Shown piece after piece: positions 12,227-63,354 of a stretch of 64,000 bases of DNA. How positions within the stretch are numbered: position 1 is the stretch's first letter; every line of letters starts with the position of its first letter. Source of the stretch: Methanocorpusculum sp. (lineage in GTDB: Archaea > Halobacteriota > Methanomicrobia > Methanomicrobiales > Methanocorpusculaceae). A program made the position numbers and the translations under genes. Where the stretch lies: NCBI GenBank assembly GCA_017408885.1, contig JAFQTT010000001.1, positions 1-64,000 of the forward strand, given 5' to 3'. The notes under the pieces were generated by a model, which was not told the origin of the DNA, ran no database searches, and was given only the letters and a program-made list of their open reading frames with translations.

Positions 12227-13143
12227 TTTTTAAACAGACTATTCTTTATTAGGTACCAAATATGGGTGAAACTATACTTAATTCTTGCTACATCAATTAC
12301 TGCAATAGAATTGCTACAATTAAATGTATGACAAGCATAATCAAATGGGGGTTTACCTACAATTTTTTTAATCGTCTTTTCTGAGAATTCATTTTCAGTA
12401 AGTTTTGATACCTCTTTTATTAACAATTCACCGCCATAAACGCGTGAGCAGTCTTGTACTGGACGATAGAGAATATCATCTACAATGAATGGTTTTCCGC
12501 CACCACGTGCGACAGGATTGTCGTACTGTATTGGATTTAATTTATGTGGTTTCCAACCTGATAAAGGAGTGTTAGAATGCCATATGTGTAGTTCACTGTT
12601 TTCTGAAGAGGATCGGCCTTTTTTTACCGTAGAAAACATCCACCAATGATTCTGGTATTCAAATATCACTGTATCAATGCCATTAAAATTATCGATTAAT
12701 GTTGTTACATATTCCCACTTATCTGGTGATCCAATGGATTTGTATAATGATATCGTATGTGATTCATTATTTTCAGGAATCATATACAATTCACCATCGT
12801 ACTCTAATAAATAGGGATATGACAAATGGGTGGGCAAATCCAGGGCAGTATGAATCTCATATCGTTTTGAAAGAACATCTTCTAAATATACATAGGATAT
12901 ATTCCCATGATAGTCCTTTTCAGAAAATCGTTCAAAAAATACAATGGGAGGACCAAAGTAATCTGTAATAAAAGGGTCTGCATAGAAATTTTCTTCCGGA
13001 CTCTCATAAATCCAATGGATGTTCTCCATATCTTTAGAAAAAATATCTTCTTCAGAATAGTTTTGAACAATTCCAATGCGCCAACAGGTCTGTTGGAATA
13101 AAACCATGGGATTTTTAATAACTTGTTTTATTGTATCAAACAT
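12223..13143 (-). CDS. Beta-propeller-like glycan protein (GINT1 N-terminal-like)
   Basis: 306 residues with repeated beta-rich blocks such as ENFYADPFITDYFG, LSYPYLLEYDGELYMIPEN and WWMFSTVKKG. This pattern resembles the N-terminal domain of glucosamine inositolphosphorylceramide transferases and GH43-like five-bladed propellers, a domain also found alone in bacterial and archaeal glycan loci. It lies between a GT4 gene (11 bp upstream) and a GNAT-like gene (4 bp overlap) in one minus-strand operon. A sugar-transfer or sugar-binding role is inferred. Confidence 0.55.
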   Translation of the reverse strand: MFDTIKQVIKNPMVLFQQTCWRIGIVQNYSEEDIFSKDMENIHWIYESPEENFYADPFITDYFGPPIVFFERFSEKDYHGNISYVYLEDVLSKRYEIHTALDLPTHLSYPYLLEYDGELYMIPENNESHTISLYKSIGSPDKWEYVTTLIDNFNGIDTVIFEYQNHWWMFSTVKKGRSSSENSELHIWHSNTPLSGWKPHKLNPIQYDNPVARGGGKPFIVDDILYRPVQDCSRVYGGELLIKEVSKLTENEFSEKTIKKIVGKPPFDYACHTFNCSNSIAVIDVARIKYSFTHIWYLIKNSLFKK

Positions 13144-13154
13144 CTTATCCTCAT

Positions 13155-14270
13155 TTATTTATAATTAGATGTCAACTCCTCATATACTTTCTCAGTCTCT
13201 GCATTCATCGCCGATAGCGAATACCCCTCCTCAATCATCTTCCTTCCGCTCAAACCAAACTCTTCTGAGAGACTCACATCTCCATACAACCTCTCCAACG
13301 CCGCAACAACCTCGTCCACATCCTTTTTCTGAATAACAATCCCGCCTGCCTCAATAATAGGTACAAGCTGCGGAATATCAGTACACACCACAGGCAAACC
13401 GCATGCCATAGCTTCCAGAAGAGTACGCGGCATGCCTTCGCTCATGCTTGTCATCAGATAGACTGATGAACGTGTATAATATGAAAGCATCTCTTCATTA
13501 TCAACACGGCCAGTAAAGATAATGGATTTATCCAAACCATTATCACACACATATGCCTGAGCAGCATCTAGATATGGTCCATCACCTACAACATACATCA
13601 ATGCTGATGGAGCATTCTGTAGGAACTTCTCAAAACCGAGAATAGCATACTTTAACCCCTTTCCTGCGGAGAGACGACCAACCCAAATAACAGTAAATGG
13701 ATTTGAGGCGTCTTTTTCAACAGGGTGGAACACATCAGTGTCTACACCATTTGGGATAATGACAATCTTTTCAGGTTTGACACCTATGGCTACCATGTCC
13801 TCTTTTTCCCGTTCTGTAAAAGTGATAACTTTATCTGCAGAATTGAAAGTAAATCGTCCAACCGTCTTGAGATAAATTTCCTGAAACCATGCCGGGACAG
13901 CCTGTGAACGCAGTCCATGATTTGTTATAACCAATGGAGCAGAACCAAGTCTCCGAACAACTGCTGCAATATTTGTCGAGATGAATAAATGAGAATGTCC
14001 ATCTATGATGTCATAGTTGTAACGATTCCGGAAAAGCTTCCAGAACATATTCAAACAGAAAGTATTTCCAAATAGCTGAAACTTTCTCCCAAAGTTCACA
14101 ACATTGTAATGAACATCCATTGGATTGATATCTGACTTTTCAGGTAAACATGTATACACAGTTATATTGTGGCCATCTTTTACTTGTTCTTCTGACAAAA
14201 GATGACTGTGCAATCCAATCCCGCCAACAACATATGGATACAAATCACTGGAAATACGGAGAACATTCAT
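13155..14270 (-). CDS. GT4 family glycosyltransferase
   Basis: 371 residues with GT-B architecture. N-terminal: YPYVVGGIGLHSHLLSEEQ. Linker: IPNGVDTDVFHPVE. C-terminal: VIWVGRLSAGKGL and SMSEGMPRTLLEAMACGLPV, which contains the EX7E motif. It heads the minus-strand operon 14270-11078 and is preceded by promoter-leader copy 3. The G+C content is higher than that of the two genes downstream of it. Confidence 0.9.
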   Translation of the reverse strand: MNVLRISSDLYPYVVGGIGLHSHLLSEEQVKDGHNITVYTCLPEKSDINPMDVHYNVVNFGRKFQLFGNTFCLNMFWKLFRNRYNYDIIDGHSHLFISTNIAAVVRRLGSAPLVITNHGLRSQAVPAWFQEIYLKTVGRFTFNSADKVITFTEREKEDMVAIGVKPEKIVIIPNGVDTDVFHPVEKDASNPFTVIWVGRLSAGKGLKYAILGFEKFLQNAPSALMYVVGDGPYLDAAQAYVCDNGLDKSIIFTGRVDNEEMLSYYTRSSVYLMTSMSEGMPRTLLEAMACGLPVVCTDIPQLVPIIEAGGIVIQKKDVDEVVAALERLYGDVSLSEEFGLSGRKMIEEGYSLSAMNAETEKVYEELTSNYK

Positions 14271-14361
14271 TATGCAACCTCATGATAAAAACAAATGATG
14301 ATTGGAATACAACTAACTCCATCACAATTTAGAACTCTGTATCCACCCATCATAGAATATA

Positions 14362-14493
14362 CATCCTCTTGTATGAGGATACATTTTGTAGACATTCATT
14401 GATTAATGTTTTGGTCAATTTGTTGAATCCTCTTTTTGTAAGATTTTCATGTATCGAAAATATGTCTGAATTCATTGATATTGTGGATTAAAT
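14362..14493 (-). repeat. Promoter-leader repeat, copy 3
   Basis: Same orientation as copy 2. Read on the minus strand towards 14270: box AATATCAATGAATTCA, TATA-like CTTACAAAAAGA (about 14432-14443), the conserved AATGAATGTCTACA segment, and palindrome TCCTCATACAAGAGGA at 14364-14379. The distance from the palindrome to the start codon is about 93 nt, longer than for copies 1 and 2. The rightward glycosyltransferase gene starts on the far side. Confidence 0.75.
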
Positions 14494-14588
14494 CGCCCAT
14501 AATCTAACCCTAAATTTGCATCTTCCTCTTTTCTCATACAACAGGATTGTATCGCAACAACCCACCATACACCCAGATTCACCCATCC

Positions 14589-15692
14589 ATGAAAATCCTC
14601 CAGATAACTCCTTACTACCTCCCGCATACAGGAGGTATTGAACGTTATGTCTATAACCTTAGTCAATACCTAATCTCAAAAGGTCACACAGTAGACATAG
14701 CGACAGCCAACGTTCCTGAATCAAACACTAAAGAAACCATCGATGGAACAACAATATATCGCTATCCACAGCTTTGTACCTTAATGGGAAACCCAATAAT
14801 TACAAACCTCTCTGATTTAAAAAGACGTCTGAAAGACTATGATATAATACATATTCATGGAGTATATACTTATGCAGCACTAAGAACAGTACTTTTTCTT
14901 GGAAAAAAACACAAACAAAAAGTACTCTTAACTCACCATGGCAGGGTTGTATATCCAAACAGCCCAAAAAACATACTGGCAAAAATCTATGAGCGGATTG
15001 TTGTTAGATTCATACTGAGAAGACTGGACTGTACAATTGTTCTCTCAGAATCAGATAAAGAACAATTCATGTCTCTTGGAATGCCTGGAGATAAAATCAA
15101 TATAATACCAAATGGAATTGATACCAATGCCTTCGTTCAGCCGGATGCGGAGGTCATGACCTACTTCACTGAAAAATACCACCTCAATAGAAAGAAGGTT
15201 ATTCTCTTTCTTGCCGTTCTCAGTGAACGAAAAGGAATCTTTGATTTGCTGCACGCATATGCTCTGATGCAGGATGAAGAAACGGTATTGTTAATTGTCG
15301 GAAACGGGCCGGATAAAGAAAAAGCAAAGGAGCTTTCCCTAGAACTGAACCTGTCAGAAACCGTAACTTTTGCCGGAAAACTTCCCTTCATCGAAATTCT
15401 CTGTGCATATGCAAGAGCAGACACCTACGTTCTCCCCTCATACTTCGAAGGAATGCCGACAACAGTGATGGAGGCTCTGGTCATGGGATGCCCGGTTGTT
15501 GCCACCTCAATTCCAGGTGTCAAAGACAACTTCGCTGACGAGGCTGTGCTTGTAGATCCGGGAAATATCAGACAGCTTAGCGATGCAATCAGAAAAAGTC
15601 TTTCAGAAACCCATGAGATTGATACCAATACACTGCGCAGGAAATATGATGCAAAAAAGGTCTTTGAAAAATATTCAAGAATATATACCTGA
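14589..15692 (+). CDS. GT4 family glycosyltransferase
   Basis: About 367 residues from the preferred ATG at 14589 (MKILQITPYYLPHTGGIERY); an in-frame ATG at 14547 would add 14 residues absent from typical family members. Motifs: HTGGIERYVYNLSQYL, IPNGIDTNAFVQPD, LAVLSERKGIFDLL and YFEGMPTTVMEALVMGCPV (EX7E). It is transcribed away from promoter-leader copy 3. It ends 157 bp before the convergent reverse transcriptase gene; no gene is supported in that gap. Confidence 0.9.
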   Translation: MKILQITPYYLPHTGGIERYVYNLSQYLISKGHTVDIATANVPESNTKETIDGTTIYRYPQLCTLMGNPIITNLSDLKRRLKDYDIIHIHGVYTYAALRTVLFLGKKHKQKVLLTHHGRVVYPNSPKNILAKIYERIVVRFILRRLDCTIVLSESDKEQFMSLGMPGDKINIIPNGIDTNAFVQPDAEVMTYFTEKYHLNRKKVILFLAVLSERKGIFDLLHAYALMQDEETVLLIVGNGPDKEKAKELSLELNLSETVTFAGKLPFIEILCAYARADTYVLPSYFEGMPTTVMEALVMGCPVVATSIPGVKDNFADEAVLVDPGNIRQLSDAIRKSLSETHEIDTNTLRRKYDAKKVFEKYSRIYT

Positions 15693-15848
15693 GAAAAGGC
15701 AGAATGAGGTTGTAGTAAATTATCTCAACCCTGTTTTAGAACACATTGTACCTGTTGATCCCAATGAGATAAACCGAAACATCACTCTTCAAACACAGAA
15801 ATCTATACACTGAAAAGATAGTTTCAGGTACATCTCACACCAAATAAA

Positions 15849-18800
15849 TCATCGCATCCTTTTCAATACATTCTCCACGTTAAATCCAGGAGGAAGGGGT
15901 TTAAATTGTATCTTCGAGAGTTGTGAAGTCTGGAAAATCCGAAGATCCTGGATTTTGAGATCACCAGTTATAAGAGAGGGAGTTGTTCCACCGCTGATTG
16001 ATGCAAGAACCCGCCCCTCATTTTTCGCAGGCTGCAGAATACAGGAACCTCCAAACTGGGAAGCATTAACATATGCTACATAGCAGTGCAAATCCCGGGA
16101 TGCCGAATCAACGATATCGGTAAAGTATCTGATATCCTTGTTTACAGAACATCCTGCCACAAAATCAACATTGGAACGGAAGAGACTCCGCTGAGCAATA
16201 TCTGCCATCTCAAAGCAGTTGTAAATGGTGAACTGAGCACCATGCCAGTTATAGAGATGATAAAGATACTCGGAATTATCTGATGGAAGATAGCCACATT
16301 TCCTGAATTCATCCAGTTCCTGCGGGGCATAGTGATTCTTTCCGCGTAAAACAATACAGCACGACTTGTACTCTCCCTTTACCTCAAACGGAAGAATAGC
16401 CGCAGTCGGATTCAGAATGGAAAACGGTACTCTGTCACTATCTGGAATTCCAGATGAATCCCTGCGCTCCGCCTGGGAAAATATATACTCCATACCGAAT
16501 ATAAGACCAATCTGATGCTGCCTGGCCCATTGACTGAGTTTCGGAAGCCAGCGGTGCGGAATTGAAAGCTCCGGAAAAATAACTAGGTTGCACTTCGTCC
16601 TGACTGCGTCATTCAGAATGCGCGATATCCTAATCCACCTCTTAAGAGAAATATCAGGAGGCATTTTTCCAGGCTGATATGCCTTTTGCAGCGTCTCATC
16701 GGAAATATCAATATTCACAATCCCGATACGCAGACATGAACAGGAAACATCATCCGTTGACTTCACGGTTATTTTTGCATAATCAAGGGGACAGTCCTCC
16801 TTATCTTCAGTATCAGACGTGTAGTGTATCTCCTGTTTACCATCCAGCCAAAAAGGATTAATAACGACTTCTTGGTTAGGCGGATTAAACCCAAGAATTG
16901 TATCATAAAAACTCTTTTTCGCCTCATCAAGATAATGCATGGTAGCCTCCCCAGCATCATAGTATGCACAGTTAAAACCTGCAGTATTTCTGAAATTCCT
17001 CAATGCATAAAACTGCTGGAATTCATACATATGGATAAATTTCGGTCTGCGCTGTATCTTTTTCCAGTCCAGTTTAATCTCCTGCGGAACATTCGAACTC
17101 CTTTGAAATGTCTGACCAAACACATTAACATCATGCAAATCCCCGTTATCATATCCGTCAATATAATTCAGAAGAGGATAGATTACATAATGCTGCGGGA
17201 AAAGATTTGTTCTCCTGAAAATCTCTGCGTACCTCTCCACAACATTTTTGTTATCGTCACTGCATCTGATGCTGAAAGGGAGATGTGAACTCAAACTCTT
17301 TCGCTCCTTCACCGAAAACAAGGCAAGAGGCTGGGCAAAAGAATATCTGAGATATTGAGTGAGAAAATCTTCCATCCTTTCTGACAACTGTTGTCTTAAT
17401 AAACTGTCCTCGCCTGATGATTTATCACCAGGAAATGCATCTGATGACGGAGATAAACGGGAAATAGTCTCCAGCAGTTCATTAGACAATGTCCTGATAT
17501 TTTTCCCCATCAAATCATCTGAAGAAAAGAGAAGAAGAGTAAACATCTTCTCCCAGGTCTTGGTATATGCAAGGTAATTATTGCCTCGCATATCCTTGAA
17601 CATATTGCCAATGAGCTCTTTTATATCTGGAATTGGTTTGCTACAAAGGGAAATCTGGGAAATCTGCTTGGATAAAGAAACCGACATCTGCATATCATCT
17701 GTTACAAACTTCTCCAGATTCCTAAGTTTATTCGTTGAGCCGTCCTTAAACACAAGCTGATAAATCCCGGTTTCCAAAAGATCCGTCACTGATTCCTCCG
17801 GAAGATAGGCAAACACACTGGAGTTATCCTTAATTTTCCGCGCAAAATTATCCAGAAGAGCGGAGGAATACTCTGGTTCAAGATGGAGATGAAGAATCTT
17901 CTCGTTCTGAATCATAAGGCGTGGTTTATCAAAACGCTGATCCAAAACCCAGTATACTACCGTGTCATTACTTTTATCAGATTTCTTTTTCCCGGATTTC
18001 TTTTCATCCGATATTTTTTCCCCGTATATATCAACCTGGACAGTCTCGAAATCTGAATAACTCAGCACACCTCTTTCTACCAGATATTCACTGATAATAT
18101 CAAACTCGGTCTTCGGAGATTCCGATTTACTGCTGGGTCCTTGTCTGGAAAATACCAGAATACAGTCATCCACATATCTCCCGTAAAACAGGGGTTTTGC
18201 CTTATTGAGAACATTCTCATCAAACGAATGAAGATGCCAGTTTGCCAAAACACCGGAAGAATGAAGACCTACTGGAAGAAGGGATTTCTGACCATTCTCC
18301 TTAATCTCTGTGTGAGTCAGATTAGTCAGAGGTTGAATAATTCCATAGAATGTATCACAAATATCTCGAATAATATCAGTCAGCTGACAACAGAATTCAT
18401 AGTTTGAAATACCGGAAAGATAACTTTTAATCGCATCAAAATCCCCCTCAATCAAATAGAAACACTTCGTCAAATCCAAGGTCAGAATATCAACAACATT
18501 ACCCTGCTTCAGCTCCATCTGCGCTGTAGATATTGCAGTATCTCTCCATCGTGCATACTCTTTTGCAAAATCCTTCAGAATATGGCTTGATTGATCGTTA
18601 TAATCCCATCTGTCAGTTAATACATTTTCAGAAAGAGAAGAATGAAGCCGATTGCCAAAGCTGCAGTCATCAAACATTTTATCCAGATGAGTGCCCACAA
18701 GCACAACCCACAGAACATCTAGCATAAAAAGCGGAATCGGCATGGAAATATAATAATTGACCCCATGCCAGTAATATCTCTTTGCGGAAGAAACATTAGA

Positions 18801-19187
18801 AATCGAAGTAATATCTCTAGGAACAGCCTCGGAATAATTATCTCTTCCGTTTTTCATCGAAACAGATTTTGGAACAGGAATATAAGATATCTTCTGAAGC
18901 CACTGAGAGATACAAGTATTTGCGTACTCCGAAAAAGCTGCATTATGATACCGGAGTCCATCTTGAATCTCAGCAAATATTCTATGAATCTTTCTGAAAT
19001 CATTATCATCACTGAAAACCGCATCATCGGCAGATGAACCCGAAGAATCTTCCAGAAGTTCAAAATCAGCAATCGCTTTTTTAAGATGCAAATCTCTGCC
19101 ATAGTATGCAGACTGCTTAAGTTTGCGGTATATTACATCATAGAGAGAAAACTTATGAGAGTCAGATGCATCATGCTCTGTGTCCAT
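15849..19187 (-). CDS. Reverse transcriptase-nitrilase fusion (DRT1/UG1-like)
   Basis: 1112 residues. The N-terminal half is a reverse transcriptase: motif A TLDLTKCFYLIEGD (catalytic D238), motif B-like LPVGLHSSGVLANW (304-317), motif C YGRYVDDCILVF (catalytic DD at 340-341). The C-terminal ~300 residues are a carbon-nitrogen hydrolase fold with LVIFPELSIPHRW (E873), VLRGKNHY (K950) and IYNCFEMADI (C991), the expected Glu-Lys-Cys triad. RT plus C-terminal nitrilase is the known layout of UG1 reverse transcriptases (DRT type 1), reported as bacterial anti-phage proteins. Only 93 bp separate it from the upstream GT2 gene, leaving little room for a long upstream non-coding RNA. Family placement is by motif and domain order, not by a search. 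Confidence 0.85.
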   Translation of the reverse strand: MDTEHDASDSHKFSLYDVIYRKLKQSAYYGRDLHLKKAIADFELLEDSSGSSADDAVFSDDNDFRKIHRIFAEIQDGLRYHNAAFSEYANTCISQWLQKISYIPVPKSVSMKNGRDNYSEAVPRDITSISNVSSAKRYYWHGVNYYISMPIPLFMLDVLWVVLVGTHLDKMFDDCSFGNRLHSSLSENVLTDRWDYNDQSSHILKDFAKEYARWRDTAISTAQMELKQGNVVDILTLDLTKCFYLIEGDFDAIKSYLSGISNYEFCCQLTDIIRDICDTFYGIIQPLTNLTHTEIKENGQKSLLPVGLHSSGVLANWHLHSFDENVLNKAKPLFYGRYVDDCILVFSRQGPSSKSESPKTEFDIISEYLVERGVLSYSDFETVQVDIYGEKISDEKKSGKKKSDKSNDTVVYWVLDQRFDKPRLMIQNEKILHLHLEPEYSSALLDNFARKIKDNSSVFAYLPEESVTDLLETGIYQLVFKDGSTNKLRNLEKFVTDDMQMSVSLSKQISQISLCSKPIPDIKELIGNMFKDMRGNNYLAYTKTWEKMFTLLLFSSDDLMGKNIRTLSNELLETISRLSPSSDAFPGDKSSGEDSLLRQQLSERMEDFLTQYLRYSFAQPLALFSVKERKSLSSHLPFSIRCSDDNKNVVERYAEIFRRTNLFPQHYVIYPLLNYIDGYDNGDLHDVNVFGQTFQRSSNVPQEIKLDWKKIQRRPKFIHMYEFQQFYALRNFRNTAGFNCAYYDAGEATMHYLDEAKKSFYDTILGFNPPNQEVVINPFWLDGKQEIHYTSDTEDKEDCPLDYAKITVKSTDDVSCSCLRIGIVNIDISDETLQKAYQPGKMPPDISLKRWIRISRILNDAVRTKCNLVIFPELSIPHRWLPKLSQWARQHQIGLIFGMEYIFSQAERRDSSGIPDSDRVPFSILNPTAAILPFEVKGEYKSCCIVLRGKNHYAPQELDEFRKCGYLPSDNSEYLYHLYNWHGAQFTIYNCFEMADIAQRSLFRSNVDFVAGCSVNKDIRYFTDIVDSASRDLHCYVAYVNASQFGGSCILQPAKNEGRVLASISGGTTPSLITGDLKIQDLRIFQTSQLSKIQFKPLPPGFNVENVLKRMR

Positions 19188-19280
19188 AATAAAGTATATC
19201 GTAACTATGGACTATTAAATATTCGTCACAAAAGTACCAGAACTATTCTATGAATGGTTTTGAAAAAATAATTAATGGGA

Positions 19281-20240
19281 TTACATATTCTTTATCATCC
19301 CAATCATCTGTGAAATCGAGTACAGAATCAATCCGCTCACCATCAGAAGCAGCCCGATAATTACAATCAGCCCGCCGCCAAGCGCAATCGTAAGCGGAAA
19401 TCCGCCGCCCATCATAAACACCTGCAAAGCCCAGATACAAACCCCAAGCCCCGCCAGCAGCACAAATCCGCCGCCAAGCCCGAAGAACGTCATCGGCCGG
19501 CGAATCGAGATGAACCGAACAAGATTCATCAGCACGGAAACACCGTGGCGAATCGGATTCTGGGAACTTGTATCCTCCAAATCATACCGCACAGAAATTG
19601 GAATCTCACCAATGGCAAGTTTTCTGTCTGAAATCTGCATCAGAATCTCAGATCCTGCTGACATGCCGTTTCCTGAAATGTTTACCACATTGTAGGCGTC
19701 ACGCGTGTATGCGCGGAATCCTGACTGAGAGTCACTGACATGTGCACCATTTGTCACCATATCAGTTGCAGTATCCAAAACCTTCATTCCAAGCTTGCGG
19801 TATCCAGGAATCATAGCCTTACTCTCAGGAGTTAAGAACCTAGAACCTATTACCACATCATAGCCTTCCGCAATCTTGGAAACAAATCGCGGAACATCTT
19901 GTGGGTTGTGCTGACCGTCAGAATCAATAATCACTAAAATATCCGGCTTATACTTCTTTGCGGTCAGGAAAATAGTATTCAAAGCCCCGCCATATCCCTT
20001 ATTTCTTCTGTGGCGGACAACAACAGCCCCTGCTTCCTCAGCCACGGCAACGGTCTTATCCTTCGAACCGTCATCAACCACAACCACTACATCTGCATAC
20101 GGTTTGACTCCTGCAACAGTATTTCCAACACGACGCTCCTCATTATAGGCAGGCATCGCAACCATCACTGTAGGCTTCCTTGACGCAATCTCATCAAAGT
20201 CATGCGTCATCTGCTGAATAATATCTGTCTCCTGAGTCAT
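19281..20240 (-). CDS. GT2 family glycosyltransferase with C-terminal membrane anchor
   Basis: 319 residues. An N-terminal GT-A domain has VMVAMPAYNEERRVGNTVAG, VVVVDDGSKDKT and VIIDSDGQHNPQD (the metal-binding DxD region). Two hydrophobic segments follow (about residues 243-265 and 280-305). This is the arrangement of dolichyl-phosphate sugar synthases, including archaeal AglJ-type proteins that charge the lipid carrier. It would be the first committed enzyme for a lipid-linked glycan in this locus. The reverse transcriptase gene lies downstream on the same strand. Confidence 0.87.
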   Translation of the reverse strand: MTQETDIIQQMTHDFDEIASRKPTVMVAMPAYNEERRVGNTVAGVKPYADVVVVVDDGSKDKTVAVAEEAGAVVVRHRRNKGYGGALNTIFLTAKKYKPDILVIIDSDGQHNPQDVPRFVSKIAEGYDVVIGSRFLTPESKAMIPGYRKLGMKVLDTATDMVTNGAHVSDSQSGFRAYTRDAYNVVNISGNGMSAGSEILMQISDRKLAIGEIPISVRYDLEDTSSQNPIRHGVSVLMNLVRFISIRRPMTFFGLGGGFVLLAGLGVCIWALQVFMMGGGFPLTIALGGGLIVIIGLLLMVSGLILYSISQMIGMIKNM

Positions 20241-20433
20241 CTCCGCACCACCATATGGTAAGATGAAAGAGTATTAGCGTTCATCCAATATAAAGAGATA
20301 CATCCATTCTGTGAATGATTAATCAAATAGATGAAAGTAACACAAACATCATATCCATGAGAGAGAAGAAAATCACAGAAGAACAAAACCAGACAAACAC
20401 GGCAAGAGATTTCACGTGATGAATCAAACTCAT

Positions 20434-20449
20434 GAGGATTTCTAACAAC
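20434..20449 (+). repeat. GAGGATTTCTAACAAC motif, copy 1
   Basis: Identical to 23550-23565 and 26752-26767. All three copies are intergenic and on the plus strand, and each is followed within about 50-100 bp by a GC-rich inverted-repeat element. Confidence 0.7.
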
Positions 20450-20504
20450 ACAAGAGTATATCTAACAATATCTATTTTTTAAAAACTTCACAAAGCAATG
20501 CAAT

Positions 20505-20640
20505 AGGCGAGAGGTACGAGCTGAGAGGCTTTAGCCTCGAAGCGTGAGCAAGTCGGTAAGACTTGCGATAGTGACTCAAGCCATAAGCACGACCGAAGGG
20601 CGTGCGATAGCATGGCGTTACAGAAAACGAGCGATAACAG
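20505..20640 (+). repeat. Small GC-rich hairpin element
   Basis: A run of short hairpins: GAGGCTTTAGCCTC (20525-20538), GCAAGTCGGTAAGACTTGC (20548-20566), and GCACG...CGTGC near 20588-20606. The GCAAG...CTTGC hairpin and the nearby GCGAGAGG recur at 23761-23807, and the hairpin alone at 24038-24055. It looks like a small dispersed element of unknown origin. Confidence 0.6.
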
Positions 20641-20851
20641 TACTTCGCTAATTTTTCGAGGGAAAATGTCACACAAATCTTATTTGAAAAAGAACAACCA
20701 CAAATCAGCGCGATTAGCCAGTATTCGCGCTGATTCGCGATTTGCCTATTTTCAACTCGAAAATATGCCATTACAAATCACAATTTCAGAAAATAATCAT
20801 GGACAAATTAAATCAAAGATAAAACTGGAAAAATAAGTGATGAAGACGGCC

Positions 20852-21361
20852 CTAGTCATGTACCAAATCACGATACTTCTTCAAATATGCATCACAAGGA
20901 GGACAGTGCAGCAACTTCTTTGCTTGAGAAAATGCAAAAACTGCTTCTTTGGCAGTAAGAAAACCATCTGTTGCCAGTGCATCAATAAACTCAGGAAAAT
21001 TCATCACAGACCCACCAATCTGATTTAGATGATGAGACAACAAAGCATCTGCAGTAACAAGAGTCACATTCATTTCAGATGCAACGACAGCAAGAGATGC
21101 ATCCGCCATACTCAATTTTGAATCGCAGGCATGCATACCCCCTGCTGCACACAACTGACTCATAGATACCTCATACCAGCGCATCCCCCAACCTTCGAGA
21201 GCTTTCCATGATGGAACCTTCATCTCCTGTTTCACCAGATTCGTAGTAAACGGATTAATTCCGTATTTTACCAGAGAAGAGATTACTTTCCGGACAAAAC
21301 CCATATTATTTAAATAAATCAACGCATTCGCATCAATCAAAAGAGAGGGTGGAAGAATCAT
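20852..21361 (-). CDS. PIN-like domain protein
   Basis: 169 residues. SLLIDANALIYL near the N-terminus (D10), SMADASLAVVA (Asp near 86) and LVTADALLSHH (Asp near 103) give the spaced acidic residues of PIN-domain ribonucleases. Its start overlaps the end of the XRE-ImmA/IrrE gene by 4 bp, so the two are coupled. By analogy with operons of this type it may be a toxin or effector nuclease whose activity is governed by the upstream protein; this is inference. Confidence 0.65.
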   Translation of the reverse strand: MILPPSLLIDANALIYLNNMGFVRKVISSLVKYGINPFTTNLVKQEMKVPSWKALEGWGMRWYEVSMSQLCAAGGMHACDSKLSMADASLAVVASEMNVTLVTADALLSHHLNQIGGSVMNFPEFIDALATDGFLTAKEAVFAFSQAKKLLHCPPCDAYLKKYRDLVHD

Positions 21362-22377
21362 GCACTCTCCAGAGACAAATCGAATAACACACTCTCACAA
21401 AGGAGTTCACGCCGTCTGCTCTGAGAAATCATACCCTCACCATAAGCACGATTTACCCACTGCCGCATCTTCATTGGTCGCTCAACCGGATATGGCACAC
21501 CAGGTTCAACCTTTCTCCAATTATTCTTACTGAAGAGAATCTGATACCGCTTCAGCACCGTATCAGAAATAATTCCAACATCCCGCATGCGATATAAAAT
21601 CGCCATCATACTAGCCCCATATTTCATCTTCAAATCATGAAGCTCATCAAGAGAGATGTTATTCCTACGCTCTCCGACATCAGCAATCAAAGTCTCACGT
21701 GGGACAAGAAGCGCACCGGCAAATAAATCAGCAGATTTCTCAATATCTACCCCCCCCTCAATAAAGTAATGTCCCAACTCATGAGCAAGAGTAAATCTCT
21801 GCCGATCCCCGGGAACCTCACTGCGCAGAACAATAAGCCTCTCGCCATCAGAAGACATAACCGTTAACGCATCAAAACTTTCCGGAGCATCAACAACCCC
21901 CACGGAAAATCCATTCTTCTCGACAACCTCCATCAGATTTTCAATTGGATCAAGACCAAGTTTCCACTCAGTGCGAATATACTCTGAAAGTACTTCTGCA
22001 TCTTCAACAGAAGAAACTATACTCTTCTTATTAGGATAAACAGATACAGGCGTAATATTGAGTATCTGCATAACTTCCTTCTGTCGCTCCAGGATGTCTC
22101 GTGACTGGAAAAGAATTGTATTTTCCTCCTTTTTCAGGAGCTTTTTCCTCTTCCTGAAAACAGGCTCGCCAACAAGATTCACCTGTGCCGTCCGGAAGAA
22201 ATAATCAACTCCAACACCAAGGACATCACATACAGCAATAAGTCTCTCCGAAGACAGAGGGAGAACACCATTTTCATACTTGGAAATTGTCATTTTATTG
22301 ACACCAAGCAAATCTGCAAGCTTCTGTTGACTCATACCAGAAAGACGTCTCGCCTGCTCCAAACGTTCTCCAAACAT
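21358..22377 (-). CDS. XRE-family regulator fused to ImmA/IrrE metallopeptidase
   Basis: About 339 residues from the preferred ATG at 22377 (MFGERLEQARRLSGMSQ); an ATG at 22392 is also in frame. Residues 1-65 are a Cro/CI helix-turn-helix (MSQQKLADLLGVNKMTISKYENG). The middle and C-terminal part is a COG2856 domain with zinc motif AHELGHYF (HExxH, about residues 199-203). Such proteins cleave or control partner repressors and toxins. With the overlapping PIN gene it forms a two-gene module of toxin-antitoxin or stress-response type. Confidence 0.85.
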   Translation of the reverse strand: MFGERLEQARRLSGMSQQKLADLLGVNKMTISKYENGVLPLSSERLIAVCDVLGVGVDYFFRTAQVNLVGEPVFRKRKKLLKKEENTILFQSRDILERQKEVMQILNITPVSVYPNKKSIVSSVEDAEVLSEYIRTEWKLGLDPIENLMEVVEKNGFSVGVVDAPESFDALTVMSSDGERLIVLRSEVPGDRQRFTLAHELGHYFIEGGVDIEKSADLFAGALLVPRETLIADVGERRNNISLDELHDLKMKYGASMMAILYRMRDVGIISDTVLKRYQILFSKNNWRKVEPGVPYPVERPMKMRQWVNRAYGEGMISQSRRRELLCESVLFDLSLESA

Positions 22378-22582
22378 AGTTCCAGACCTCAAATTAAGTT
22401 ACAAAAAACATATCAAAAATATATTTGTAACTTATTACATCTAGATTTATTTTGAAAACATATATAGTTACCTCACCTGAATATGAGAAGTGTATTCTGC
22501 AGATAGAGAGGCAACCCCCACTCACCAAAACCCCTACACACCAACCACAACCTAAAACATATATCACACCCAATAATACCAT

Positions 22583-23509
22583 ATGCATTACCTGGTCACC
22601 GGAGGCGCCGGATTCATCGGCTCACATATCGCAGAAGCCTTAATCAAACGGGGAGACACACCAGTCATCCTCGACAACATGTATTCGGGCAGAAAAGAAA
22701 ACCTCGAAGCAAACCAAAAAGCCATCTTCATCGAAGGCTCCATCATGGATACCGCCTTGCTTGATGAAATCTGTACTAAATACAACATCAACGGAATCTT
22801 CCACTTAGCAGCCGTTGCAAGCGTACAGAAATCCATCGAAAACCCTGCGCACGTACACGAGATAAACGCAACAGGCACAATAAACGTCCTTGAAGCAGCA
22901 AGAAAACACCAGATTCGAAAAGTAGTCTTATCCGCCAGTGCCGCAGCATACGGAGACAACCCTGTCTTCCCGAAAAAAGAAGACATGCTCCCGGAACCAT
23001 TATCCCCATATGCAGTCTCCAAAATCGCAGGCGAGATGTACTGCAAAACATATGCAGAACTCTACGGAATCCAGACAGTATCTCTTCGCTACTTCAATGT
23101 CTTCGGCCCAAGACAGGACCCAAATGGAGAATATGCAGCAGTCATCCCGAAGTTCACTGAAAAAATCTGTGCTGGAGAAAGCCCAACAGTGTTCGGTGAC
23201 GGAGAACAGACCAGAGACTTCGTATTCGTAAAAGACGTCGCCAAAGCAAACCTCCTTGCAATGGACTCCGATGTCTCAGGGCTTTTCAACATCGGAACCG
23301 GAATCCAGACCTCATTAAATGACCTCGCAAAAATGATAATGGCAGCCGCTGGAAAAACCGTTGAGATGAACTACGAAAAAGCAAGAGACGGAGACGTCAG
23401 ATACTCTGTTGCAGACATCTCAAAAGCCAAAGAACAGCTTGGATACGAACCTGAGTTTGACCTGGCTGAAGGAATCAAAGAGACCGTTGAATACTTCAAC
23501 AGTCTCTAA
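22583..23509 (+). CDS. NAD-dependent epimerase, UDP-glucose 4-epimerase-like
   Basis: 308 residues: the length and style of archaeal GalE-like enzymes. It starts YLVTGGAGFIGSHIAEAL (NAD binding), has SASAAAYGDNPVFP and the catalytic SPYAVSKIAGE (YxxxK), and RYFNVFGPRQDPNGEYAAVIP. It would interconvert UDP-glucose and UDP-galactose or a related pair, completing the sugar-nucleotide set with GalU and Ugd. It stands alone at the right edge of the glycan locus. Confidence 0.87.
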   Translation: MHYLVTGGAGFIGSHIAEALIKRGDTPVILDNMYSGRKENLEANQKAIFIEGSIMDTALLDEICTKYNINGIFHLAAVASVQKSIENPAHVHEINATGTINVLEAARKHQIRKVVLSASAAAYGDNPVFPKKEDMLPEPLSPYAVSKIAGEMYCKTYAELYGIQTVSLRYFNVFGPRQDPNGEYAAVIPKFTEKICAGESPTVFGDGEQTRDFVFVKDVAKANLLAMDSDVSGLFNIGTGIQTSLNDLAKMIMAAAGKTVEMNYEKARDGDVRYSVADISKAKEQLGYEPEFDLAEGIKETVEYFNSL

Positions 23510-23549
23510 ACAATCAATAAAATACCTGATACACCAAAACAACCCTATT

Positions 23550-23565
23550 GAGGATTTCTAACAAC
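23550..23565 (+). repeat. GAGGATTTCTAACAAC motif, copy 2
   Basis: Exact copy of the motif at 20434 and 26752, 40 bp downstream of the epimerase stop and about 75 bp before inverted-repeat element A. Confidence 0.7.
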
Positions 23566-23641
23566 CTCCAATTTTAAAAACGAGAGAATCATCTTAACTC
23601 AATTTCGAAAATAATCTCTTCCCTATACAAACAAATATAGG

Positions 23642-23832
23642 ATATTCCACCGCGGGCGGCTCCGCGCCGGAGTCGCCGCCCCGCACCCCATTTCAAAAAT
23701 AAAATCGTGATTATCCTTTTTCTAAATTTAGTGGTGCGGAACCGCGACTCCGGCGCGGGGCGAGAGGCATTACCCTCAAGCCATTAGCAAGGCTCAATGA
23801 GACTTGCGGTGGCGGTTCGCGGTGGAGATATT
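23642..23832. repeat. GC-rich inverted-repeat element A (interrupted)
   Basis: The left arm 23642-23690 starts ATATTCCACCGCGGGCGGCT. The right arm is split: 23732-23760 and about 23810-23832 pair with the left arm, while 23761-23809 is an extra ~50 bp segment of the small hairpin family (GCGAGAGG, GCAAGGCTC...GACTTGC). The intact counterpart is element B at 26811-26958. The arrangement suggests one small element inserted into another. Confidence 0.7.
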
Positions 23833-24037
23833 CTCCCAAACTCCAGATATATGAAAACAAACAATCAGTATATGTGGCATCTTATTCTTGATTATTCAAA
23901 AAACAGATTATGTTAGAAATTATTCTTTTTCAAAATCTGAACAAGTTACAATCACTAATTAAAACACACAAAAACAGTTTGAAAAAAATATATTTACACC
24001 CAACACCCCTCATCACCATAGGCGATTCAAGGTGTGA

Positions 24038-61649: not shown

Positions 61650-63354
61650 ACTGTGCCGGGATGATAAGTCCGCGCTCTCCTGCTGGCATGAACTCGCGGA
61701 TTGCTCCCTTTGCGAATTCTGCACGCGGGTTTGCGAAGTCGAACTTGAGTGCCGGGTCTGCGAAGCAGATCTTGATAAGCGGGGAGAGTGCCCATGCGTC
61801 ACCGCGACCAATGTGTGCTGCGCCGACGATTGCTGCGTATTCTCCCTGGTGACCGACGTTCATTGCGTAGTTCGGGTAGTTCGGTCCACGGAATTCTCCG
61901 ATACATCCCTCATCTGGTCTGATGGAGAGAGAGTTTGCGGAACCGCACTGGTCCTGAAGGTCGTAGCCGAAGAAACCAAGTCTGGACCATCCGTCCTTGT
62001 GCATAAGCTGGGACAGGTACCATGCGTTCAGACCTGCGTTGGAGTTACCGGTTGCGATAGAAGTGGTAGTACCACATGCTGCTGCAAGAACTGCTGCACG
62101 CTGGGATCCACCGAAGTGGTCTTCCATCATGGTCGGGAACTGTTCGTACTGCTCCATACCGTAGAGGTTGACTTCAGTACCGATGTCGTTGACAACTTCC
62201 TGGGTTGGCTTGACTTTGTCGTTCGGGTTCGGGTTGGTGACATCAACGTTGTACTTGTCGTGGATGTAGTCCATACCGTGGTAGACGAAGTCGTCGAGGA
62301 TGTTATCAGTGTATGCTGCAGTTGCGTACTGAGTGAATCCGACACCACCAGACATGTAGGAACCGAGCCAGATCTGGTCAAAGAGGACTGCTCCTGCACC
62401 GACAACTTCAAGGGTTGCCTTTGCCGGGTCGTACGGGTTGACACGGTCTGCCTGGATCATATCTGCGAAGTTACCGAAGAGAATTCCTCCTGGCTCGTTC
62501 GGACCGCGTGCACGGCGGGCCGGCAGGGAGGATGCCATGTTGATGACACCAGCGTGCTTTGCTGCGAAGGAAAGGTCTGCGACTGCTGCTTCTCCTGCGC
62601 ACATGCGGTATGCTGCAATGAAGGACATACCGATCTGCATTGCGGACCAGCGGGAGGTAGTTCCACCATCACAGGTTCTTCCGACGATGGTTGGCATGTG
62701 AACACACTGCCAGAGGGACTTGCCGACTGCTGCCTGGAGTGCTTCTGCCTGCTTCTTCGGGAAGAGCTTCTCGATGTCGATGACGTACTGGGACTCGAGA
62801 GAGTCTGCGAGTTCCTGGTCACCAGTGAAGACACGGACGTAACAGTCGTCGGTTAATGCCGGGTGGGTTTCGACCATGTGTTCCTGAACGACTGCTCCTC
62901 CTGGCATTGCGTGGTTGACAACGTGGAGGTATTCGTTGATGGTTTCCGGAGTAACTTCCTTACCGAGACGCTTCTGGAGAGTCTGGTGTGCCATGTCCAT
63001 GGAAACGATTACAGTTCTGCGGATGTCGTCCCACATCTGCTGCATTGCTGCGTTGTTGACGAAGTGGAGATCATCACCCTCAACGAAGGTTCCGGTTCCG
63101 GAGACTTCGTAGGTCATGAGCTGACGCTGACCCATTGGGACACCTGCTAAGTGGCAGTGGTCCGGGTCGTACATGGAGATACCGCGCTTTGCAACGATTG
63201 CCTCGTTCTCCTTAAGGAACTCGGTCTTACGTGCAGACTGGTGGACACCGTTGAACTTGTAGAACTCGGTGGTGGTGGATGCAACATCCTGCTGTGGGAA
63301 CTTCTGCTTGAGTGCGTCAAGGAAAAGTTTCTGGGTCTTTTCTACTTTAGCCAT
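61648..63354 (-). CDS. mcrA: Methyl-coenzyme M reductase subunit alpha
   Basis: 568 residues. [20 protein letters not shown] carries the thioglycine and nearby modified residues, [20 protein letters not shown] precedes the methylated sites, and [20 protein letters not shown] contains the active-site tyrosine region. It is the catalytic subunit that binds F430 and releases methane. It begins 2 bp after mcrG, with the RBS inside the mcrG end. Confidence 0.97.

Follow-up and report, generated by a model that had tools for sequence, protein, structure and literature searches.

The window analyzed here is the whole stretch of 64,000 nucleotides at positions 1 to 64,000 of contig JAFQTT010000001.1 from Methanocorpusculum sp., and the gene under study occupies 15849-19187 on its minus strand. 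It encodes a protein of 1112 residues in which a reverse transcriptase (RT) is fused to a nitrilase, in an intact and uninterrupted frame. An earlier note, made from the sequence alone, had described this fusion without stating its strand and had placed it with the UG1 (DRT1) reverse transcriptases. The fusion was confirmed and the family placement was not; by profile score and tree position, the protein is a UG5-nitrilase (DRT5), placed in a clade of methanogen sequences that is nested in a UG5 radiation with mainly bacterial members. All features within and just before the gene are given on the minus strand. The RT region covers residues 95-350 (approximate limits, 18138-18905) and carries the motif A aspartate D238 (18474-18476) and the catalytic motif YVDD at residues 338-341 (18165-18176). 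A middle, mostly helical region follows at residues 440-800 (approximate limits, 16788-17870), and then the nitrilase domain at residues 814-1105 (15873-16748) with E873 (16569-16571), K950 (16338-16340), and C991 (16215-16217). Each of these catalytic residues was found in the translation at the position first reported, and a second glutamate, E957 (16317-16319), completes a nitrilase-type Glu-Lys-Glu-Cys tetrad. D238, Y338, D340, D341, E873, K950, E957, and C991 are each invariant in all 64 aligned UG5 rows. Pfam matches to RVT_1 (residues 231-347, 26.8 bits) and CN_hydrolase (16.1 bits) lie under their curated cut-offs of 29.6 and 23.2, and the RT region was delimited by profile and alignment.

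The alignment comprises 59 kept loci, the window protein, and four archaeal copies. Eighty loci were found; four partial ones (L025, L031, L060, and L087) were left out, and a further 17 were removed from the remaining 76, their single frame covering too little. By look, many of the dropped loci resemble a UG5-small RT with a separate nitrilase frame. Aligned identity of the window protein to the 59 rows, which come from named records, is 22-32%, and the Methanolinea copy, which is among these rows, reaches 32%. For structure, an alignment of 41 of the 59 rows plus the window protein (A3) was used.

Family assignment was decided with PADLOC profiles, considering the best 25 of the 32 families that matched. 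The UG5-nitrilase profile PDLC03780 matched residues 13-1106 over profile positions 21-894 of 907, with 638.8 bits and E 4.7e-192. A second UG5-nitrilase model scored 354.8 bits, UG5-small 267.1, and an RT-associated nitrilase 119.7. The best UG1 profile, Drt1a, reached 89.3 bits with its strongest stretch in the nitrilase part, followed by Drt3a (42.0) and other RT classes. As controls, the Drt1a profile gave 1278-1441 bits for three UG1 reference (plasmid) proteins and the UG5-nitrilase profile 104-128 for them; for two other proteins the UG5-nitrilase profile gave 1017 and 1034 bits. The profile search of both domains proposed in the earlier note thus upheld a defense RT-nitrilase and returned UG5, in place of UG1, as the best family. 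Profiles also oppose a group II intron or retron RT, either of which would have contradicted that note: no intron maturase domain was found in the protein with Pfam at E 1, and retron-type PADLOC profiles matched weakly (E 4e-5 to 7e-4), a result of profiles only, as neither group is represented in our trees.

All three trees were quick ones with SH-aLRT support only and no bootstraps, and not all 69 rows were scanned with PADLOC. In the joint tree of both domains, the four sequences of the genus cluster at 100, Methanolinea joins them at 97, and a group of 15 rows (6 archaeal and 9 bacterial) forms at 99, with UG1 separate at 100. The RT-only and nitrilase-only trees each recover the genus group at 99 and keep UG1 separate at 100; Methanolinea's tie to the genus group is unstarred in both. 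The window protein therefore did not fall inside UG1 in any tree, and there is no sign of domain exchange, since the two single-domain trees agree on the genus group and the UG1 split. The copy in genome G207 sits inside the 15-row group of the joint tree and shifts position in the RT tree. In the joint tree, the copy from Candidatus Methanorudis stands apart from the other archaea, in a group (97) with one Actinomycetota row and three from Bacillota, which suggests that UG5 entered archaea more than once.

The C-terminal end ties UG5 to UG1 at one sharp, testable residue. Profile alignment pairs the UG5 motif KPLPPGF (residues 1096-1102, 15882-15902) with KTQPAGF of DRT1, so that K1096 aligns with DRT1 K1219, and three more UG1 proteins have KTKPAG, KTPPAG, or KYPPAG a few residues from their end. 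All 64 UG5 rows keep K1096, 62 keep P1099, and position 1100 is proline or alanine in every one of the 64. According to PMC13275509, whose residue numbers we placed on the alignment ourselves, the final 19 residues of DRT1 reach the neighboring subunit and cover its nitrilase pocket, and K1219A or A1223F lowers defense to the level of C-terminal deletions. For priming, S457 (17817-17819) is a candidate only, on conservation: 61 of 64 rows have serine here, and among the serines that follow YVDD no other is both nearly universal and shared with two far UG5 rows. The post-palm loop of the window protein aligns unreliably with the DRT1 region that holds its priming serine, S402. The middle region is nearly all helix, and a fold search with it returned no significant match.

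The gene stands between glycosyltransferase genes in a stretch of 15693-19280. Its upstream gap is 93 bp (19188-19280), as first reported, and its downstream gap is 156 bp (15693-15848), not 157. The glycan neighborhood described earlier is supported by Pfam for one GT4 gene (13155-14270), and the GT4 and GT2 genes that adjoin the RT gene were named by eye. In the relative G032 (L139), which has no RT gene at this place, orthologues of the flanking GT4 (67% amino acid identity) and GT2 (97%) lie about 40 bp apart. In G031 (L140), a different GT4 comes about 45 bp after GT2 (91%). No UG5 match was found in G031, and G032 gave only a partial RT match elsewhere in its genome. The cross-strain comparison suggested in the earlier note thus found the RT gene absent from the same site in two relatives, and since the flanking genes adjoin there without it, the cargo at this site is, as judged from gene order, a single accessory gene inserted into a glycan locus. 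Base composition gives no clear sign of insertion, with 40.7% G+C in the UG5 gene, 40.6% in the neighboring GT4, and 47.7% in GT2.

At 20852-22392, between GT2 and an epimerase gene, lie an XRE-ImmA/IrrE gene (PADLOC RmrA, E 4e-44) and a PIN-like gene. HTH_3 and Peptidase_M78 were found in the XRE-ImmA/IrrE gene, as the earlier description implied; the "PIN" gene had no Pfam match at E 0.01, so that its label reflects look. Neither gene has a match in L139, L140, or L141, and the two form a second insertion. A TATA-like TTTAATA, identified by eye 26-32 bp before the ATG (19213-19219), would start the transcript of the UG5 gene near its ATG. With such a start and 93 bp to the next gene, there is little space upstream for a partner RNA, in agreement with the first reading of the gaps. 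Elsewhere, at 23660-23760 on the minus strand, two microRNA families matched far below their gathering scores, probably marking an intergenic hairpin.

The host genome is a draft assembly, 90.5% complete, whose 13 contigs total 1.55 Mb. Its methanogen identity, assumed earlier, is supported by mcrA on the same contig (MCR_alpha, E 1.9e-70, 61978-62379), 43 kb from the RT gene, and a sister genome matches the flanks at 71-90% DNA identity. An archaeal member had been expected to widen the range of the family, and this copy proved not to be alone: 14 of 232 genomes of the order match the UG5 profile at E 0.001, six of them at full length (its own genome, G024, G028, G039, G207, and G221, taken as the Methanolinea copy), and a further copy occurs in a Methanobacteriales metagenome-assembled genome. 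Within the genus, 4 of 25 genomes carry a full-length copy. The eight other matches in the order are partial; four were scanned, with a general RT profile as the best fit for three and Drt4 for one. In a sample of the phylum, 6 of 392 genomes match at E 1e-20, namely five of the full-length ones already counted and one with a nitrilase in another protein. Wrong binning is unlikely for G024 and G207, which are one-contig genomes. Between close UG5 copies, dN/dS is 0.34 (L025 versus L003, 494 codons) and 0.22 (L031 versus L004, 682 codons), values that point to purifying selection. Intact genes of this predicted defense type in archaea, one-contig genomes included, mean that the mechanism does not have to depend on bacterial cells or phages. 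Archaeal UG RTs may well appear in the tables of the main UG/Abi survey (Mestre et al. 2022). Among open-licence literature screened by title or start of abstract, no paper was found that treats DRT5 in methanogens or its pairing with an exonuclease.

Several side observations came from the same searches. An archaeal RT of a different DRT class occurs in the same order (L012 838-2445 in G102; PADLOC Drt4, E 1.6e-179). In G348, a 2005-residue protein (L128 3085-9102) combines DUF4062, NACHT, and HEAT repeats with a C-terminal UG5-like nitrilase that matches the UG5 nitrilase profile at E 3e-16 in a one-sequence search and retains Glu, Lys, and Cys; here the nitrilase is an effector in another architecture. 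Two short contigs labeled Bacteroidales (L025) and Bacilli (L031) carry UG5 and an exonuclease 84-94% identical to methanogen copies and are probably methanogen contigs binned wrongly. A 4.3 kb contig labeled Bifidobacterium breve (L049) groups with Bacteroidota and Chlorobiota UG5 rows, and its label is doubtful.

An exonuclease of the DEDDh type adjoins UG5 in 4 of 7 archaeal loci (L016 7425-8168, L017 11079-11807, L018 6847-7551, and L020 7394-7975). It is convergent and downstream in G024 and G028. In G039 and Methanolinea it shares the strand of UG5, lying upstream in the former and 15 bp past the UG5 stop in the latter. None was found at the G207 and Methanorudis loci, and the window's own genome has no match to it. 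These proteins match Pfam RNase_T at E 1.6e-8 to 1.2e-24, and their best PADLOC match is a DEDDh model labeled CRISPR-associated, not DRT. D24, E26, D115, H169, and D174 are invariant across the three genus copies, and we take them to be the DEDDh set. At E 0.001, 4 of 25 genus genomes match one exonuclease copy; the match in G032 is weak (4e-8), which leaves precisely G024, G028, and G039 as the strong cases. At E 1e-40, a cut chosen after the data were seen, the exonuclease occurs in 3 of 4 UG5 genomes versus 0 of 21 others (Fisher p 0.0017, or 0.018 with the 12 better genomes). A search of the 232 genomes of the order at E 1e-15 gave matches in four, the same three and G142, where the copy ends a 3.6 kb contig with UG5 not in sight; the Methanolinea exonuclease is too distant to appear in this search. 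Among 100 frames neighboring 57 other UG5 loci, RNase_T was not among the top 25 of 130 Pfam families, and since the lowest of these 25 count 2 members, at most about two cases are allowed for; 1.5 kb was present on both sides in only 42 of these loci. Assuming two, the contrast is 4 of 7 archaeal versus 2 of 57 other loci (p 0.0008), and all these p values are rough, as the rows are related by descent. The pairing is the most novel lead of this work and is absent from the window. Two further genes were noted: a second DEDDh exonuclease copy in G028 without UG5 beside it (L127 8804-9583), and beside UG5 in L066 a 1604-residue helicase gene whose start is DEDDh-like by eye, with no such Pfam match at E 0.001.

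Some other UG5 loci are placed among defense genes. In the 100 neighboring frames, six match type I restriction R subunits, and six (Pfam) or up to seven (PADLOC) match specificity subunits. The individual cases were taken from the nearest loci listed and are not a random draw. UG5 stands just before hsdR in L026, L030, and L033, adjoins hsdS and hsdM in L057 (Methanorudis), precedes gajA and gajB in L029, and precedes a Drt1b-type transmembrane (TM) gene in L024 (E 7e-55). In G207, the start of UG5 shares 20 bp with a UvrD helicase-nuclease gene, which matches the RT-associated helicase of PADLOC (E 2e-56).

By analogy with characterized relatives, this methanogen gene probably constitutes, by itself, an antiviral system of the UG5-nitrilase (DRT5) type. 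In PMC13275509, which as far as covered here says nothing of archaea, DRT5S, DRT5L, and DRT1 make template-free DNA despite RNase A, attached covalently to protein, and DRT1 abortive defense requires both RT and nitrilase. The RT would make short DNA on itself, primed by its own residue and without a template. As in DRT1, the covalent DNA would drive tetramers and filaments via the nitrilase core, and the C-terminal tail, whose KxxP[P/A] lid motif is present here, would shut the nitrilase pocket of the neighboring subunit. Infection might then disturb the assembly, so that the nitrilase attacks an essential metabolite and the cell halts before virus release. Such a system would need no partner RNA. 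Four points weigh on the other side. The immediate neighbors are glycan genes, not known defense genes, with the exception of the XRE-ImmA/IrrE pair 2.2 kb upstream; DRT1 S402 is said in PMC13275509 to lack conservation among other class 3 RTs; no TM partner was seen beside the window copy (PMC9122126 lists a UG5 RT-nitrilase + TM gene, 1TM, among P4-satellite systems); and the host genome lacks the exonuclease that stands beside four other archaeal copies.

That last point raises the alternative that the window copy is an orphan, the methanogen unit being UG5 plus a DEDDh exonuclease, a partner that was lost here or is replaced by another nuclease in trans. The four adjoining pairs, and an exonuclease family whose four carriers in the order include three UG5 genomes, speak for it. 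The intact window gene, the adjoining flanks in relatives, which suggest that one gene arrived alone, the G207 and Methanorudis loci without exonuclease, and the near absence of RNase_T around other UG5 loci make it unlikely. A small partner RNA in or beside the gene, as in class 2 DRTs or retrons, would fit the habit of many DRTs and retrons, and short RNAs inside the gene are possible by sequence; the gaps of 93 and 156 bp, the TATA-like box, the lack of any Rfam match over gathering score in 13000-24000, and the RNase-resistant synthesis by DRT5S and DRT5L in PMC13275509 render it quite improbable.

Its position between glycosyltransferase genes could also indicate a housekeeping or cell-surface role shared with them. 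We give this little credence: two relatives lack the gene at the same place, and the other three full-length copies of the genus are set among different genes, where the window's flanking genes have no match. Wrong binning of a bacterial contig, or a decaying gene, might be suspected in a draft of 13 contigs. Against an mcrA gene on the same contig, flanks resembling a sister genome, copies in two one-contig genomes, and an intact frame with its catalytic residues, it is scarcely conceivable. Membership in UG1, as first proposed, draws on an identical domain order, the 89.3-bit Drt1a match, and PDB 9YFD, the best PDB match by sequence; the far higher UG5 score, the strong preference of UG1 controls for Drt1a, and the separation of UG1 in the trees leave it next to no probability.

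Beyond the single-gene antiviral reading, we offer a tentative and rather doubtful proposal for the relatives. Methanogen DRT5 may be a two-gene system in which the DEDDh 3'-5' exonuclease trims or edits the covalent single-stranded DNA, setting the nitrilase as locked or freed, and the window copy may be a form reduced to one gene, with no need of an editor. If this is true, the same activity would have been recruited repeatedly, as two distant exonuclease types in three gene arrangements. Natural pairs with and without the exonuclease could reveal how covalent DNA is controlled, a question left open by the DRT1 work.

Among known systems, retrons resemble the proposed working in that non-genomic DNA restrains an effector, an analogy taken from PMC13275509, and differ in that no RNA template or msr-msd was seen at the window gene and profile matches are weak. 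AbiA and other Abi RTs share the RT and helical region (rmsd 23.5 despite a Foldseek E of 2.3e-6) and have no nitrilase of this kind. UG1/DRT1 (PDB 9YFD) shares the RT, helical region, nitrilase, and KxxP[P/A] lid, and is expected to work alike. In DRT1 as described in PMC13275509, an alpha-helical repeat domain appears to sit between RT and nitrilase, like the middle region here, and the priming serine is described there as conserved within DRT1 only. DRT1 differs by its separate clade and a far lower profile score. The known UG5-nitrilase/DRT5 systems (PDLC03780; DRT5S and DRT5L) agree with the window protein in domain order, catalytic residues, full-length profile, and tree position, and the window copy differs from them in its archaeal host, the lack of a visible TM partner, and an aligned identity of 22-32%. 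The UG5/DRT5 kind itself is already known; the archaeal host and the lid lysine are the worthwhile additions.
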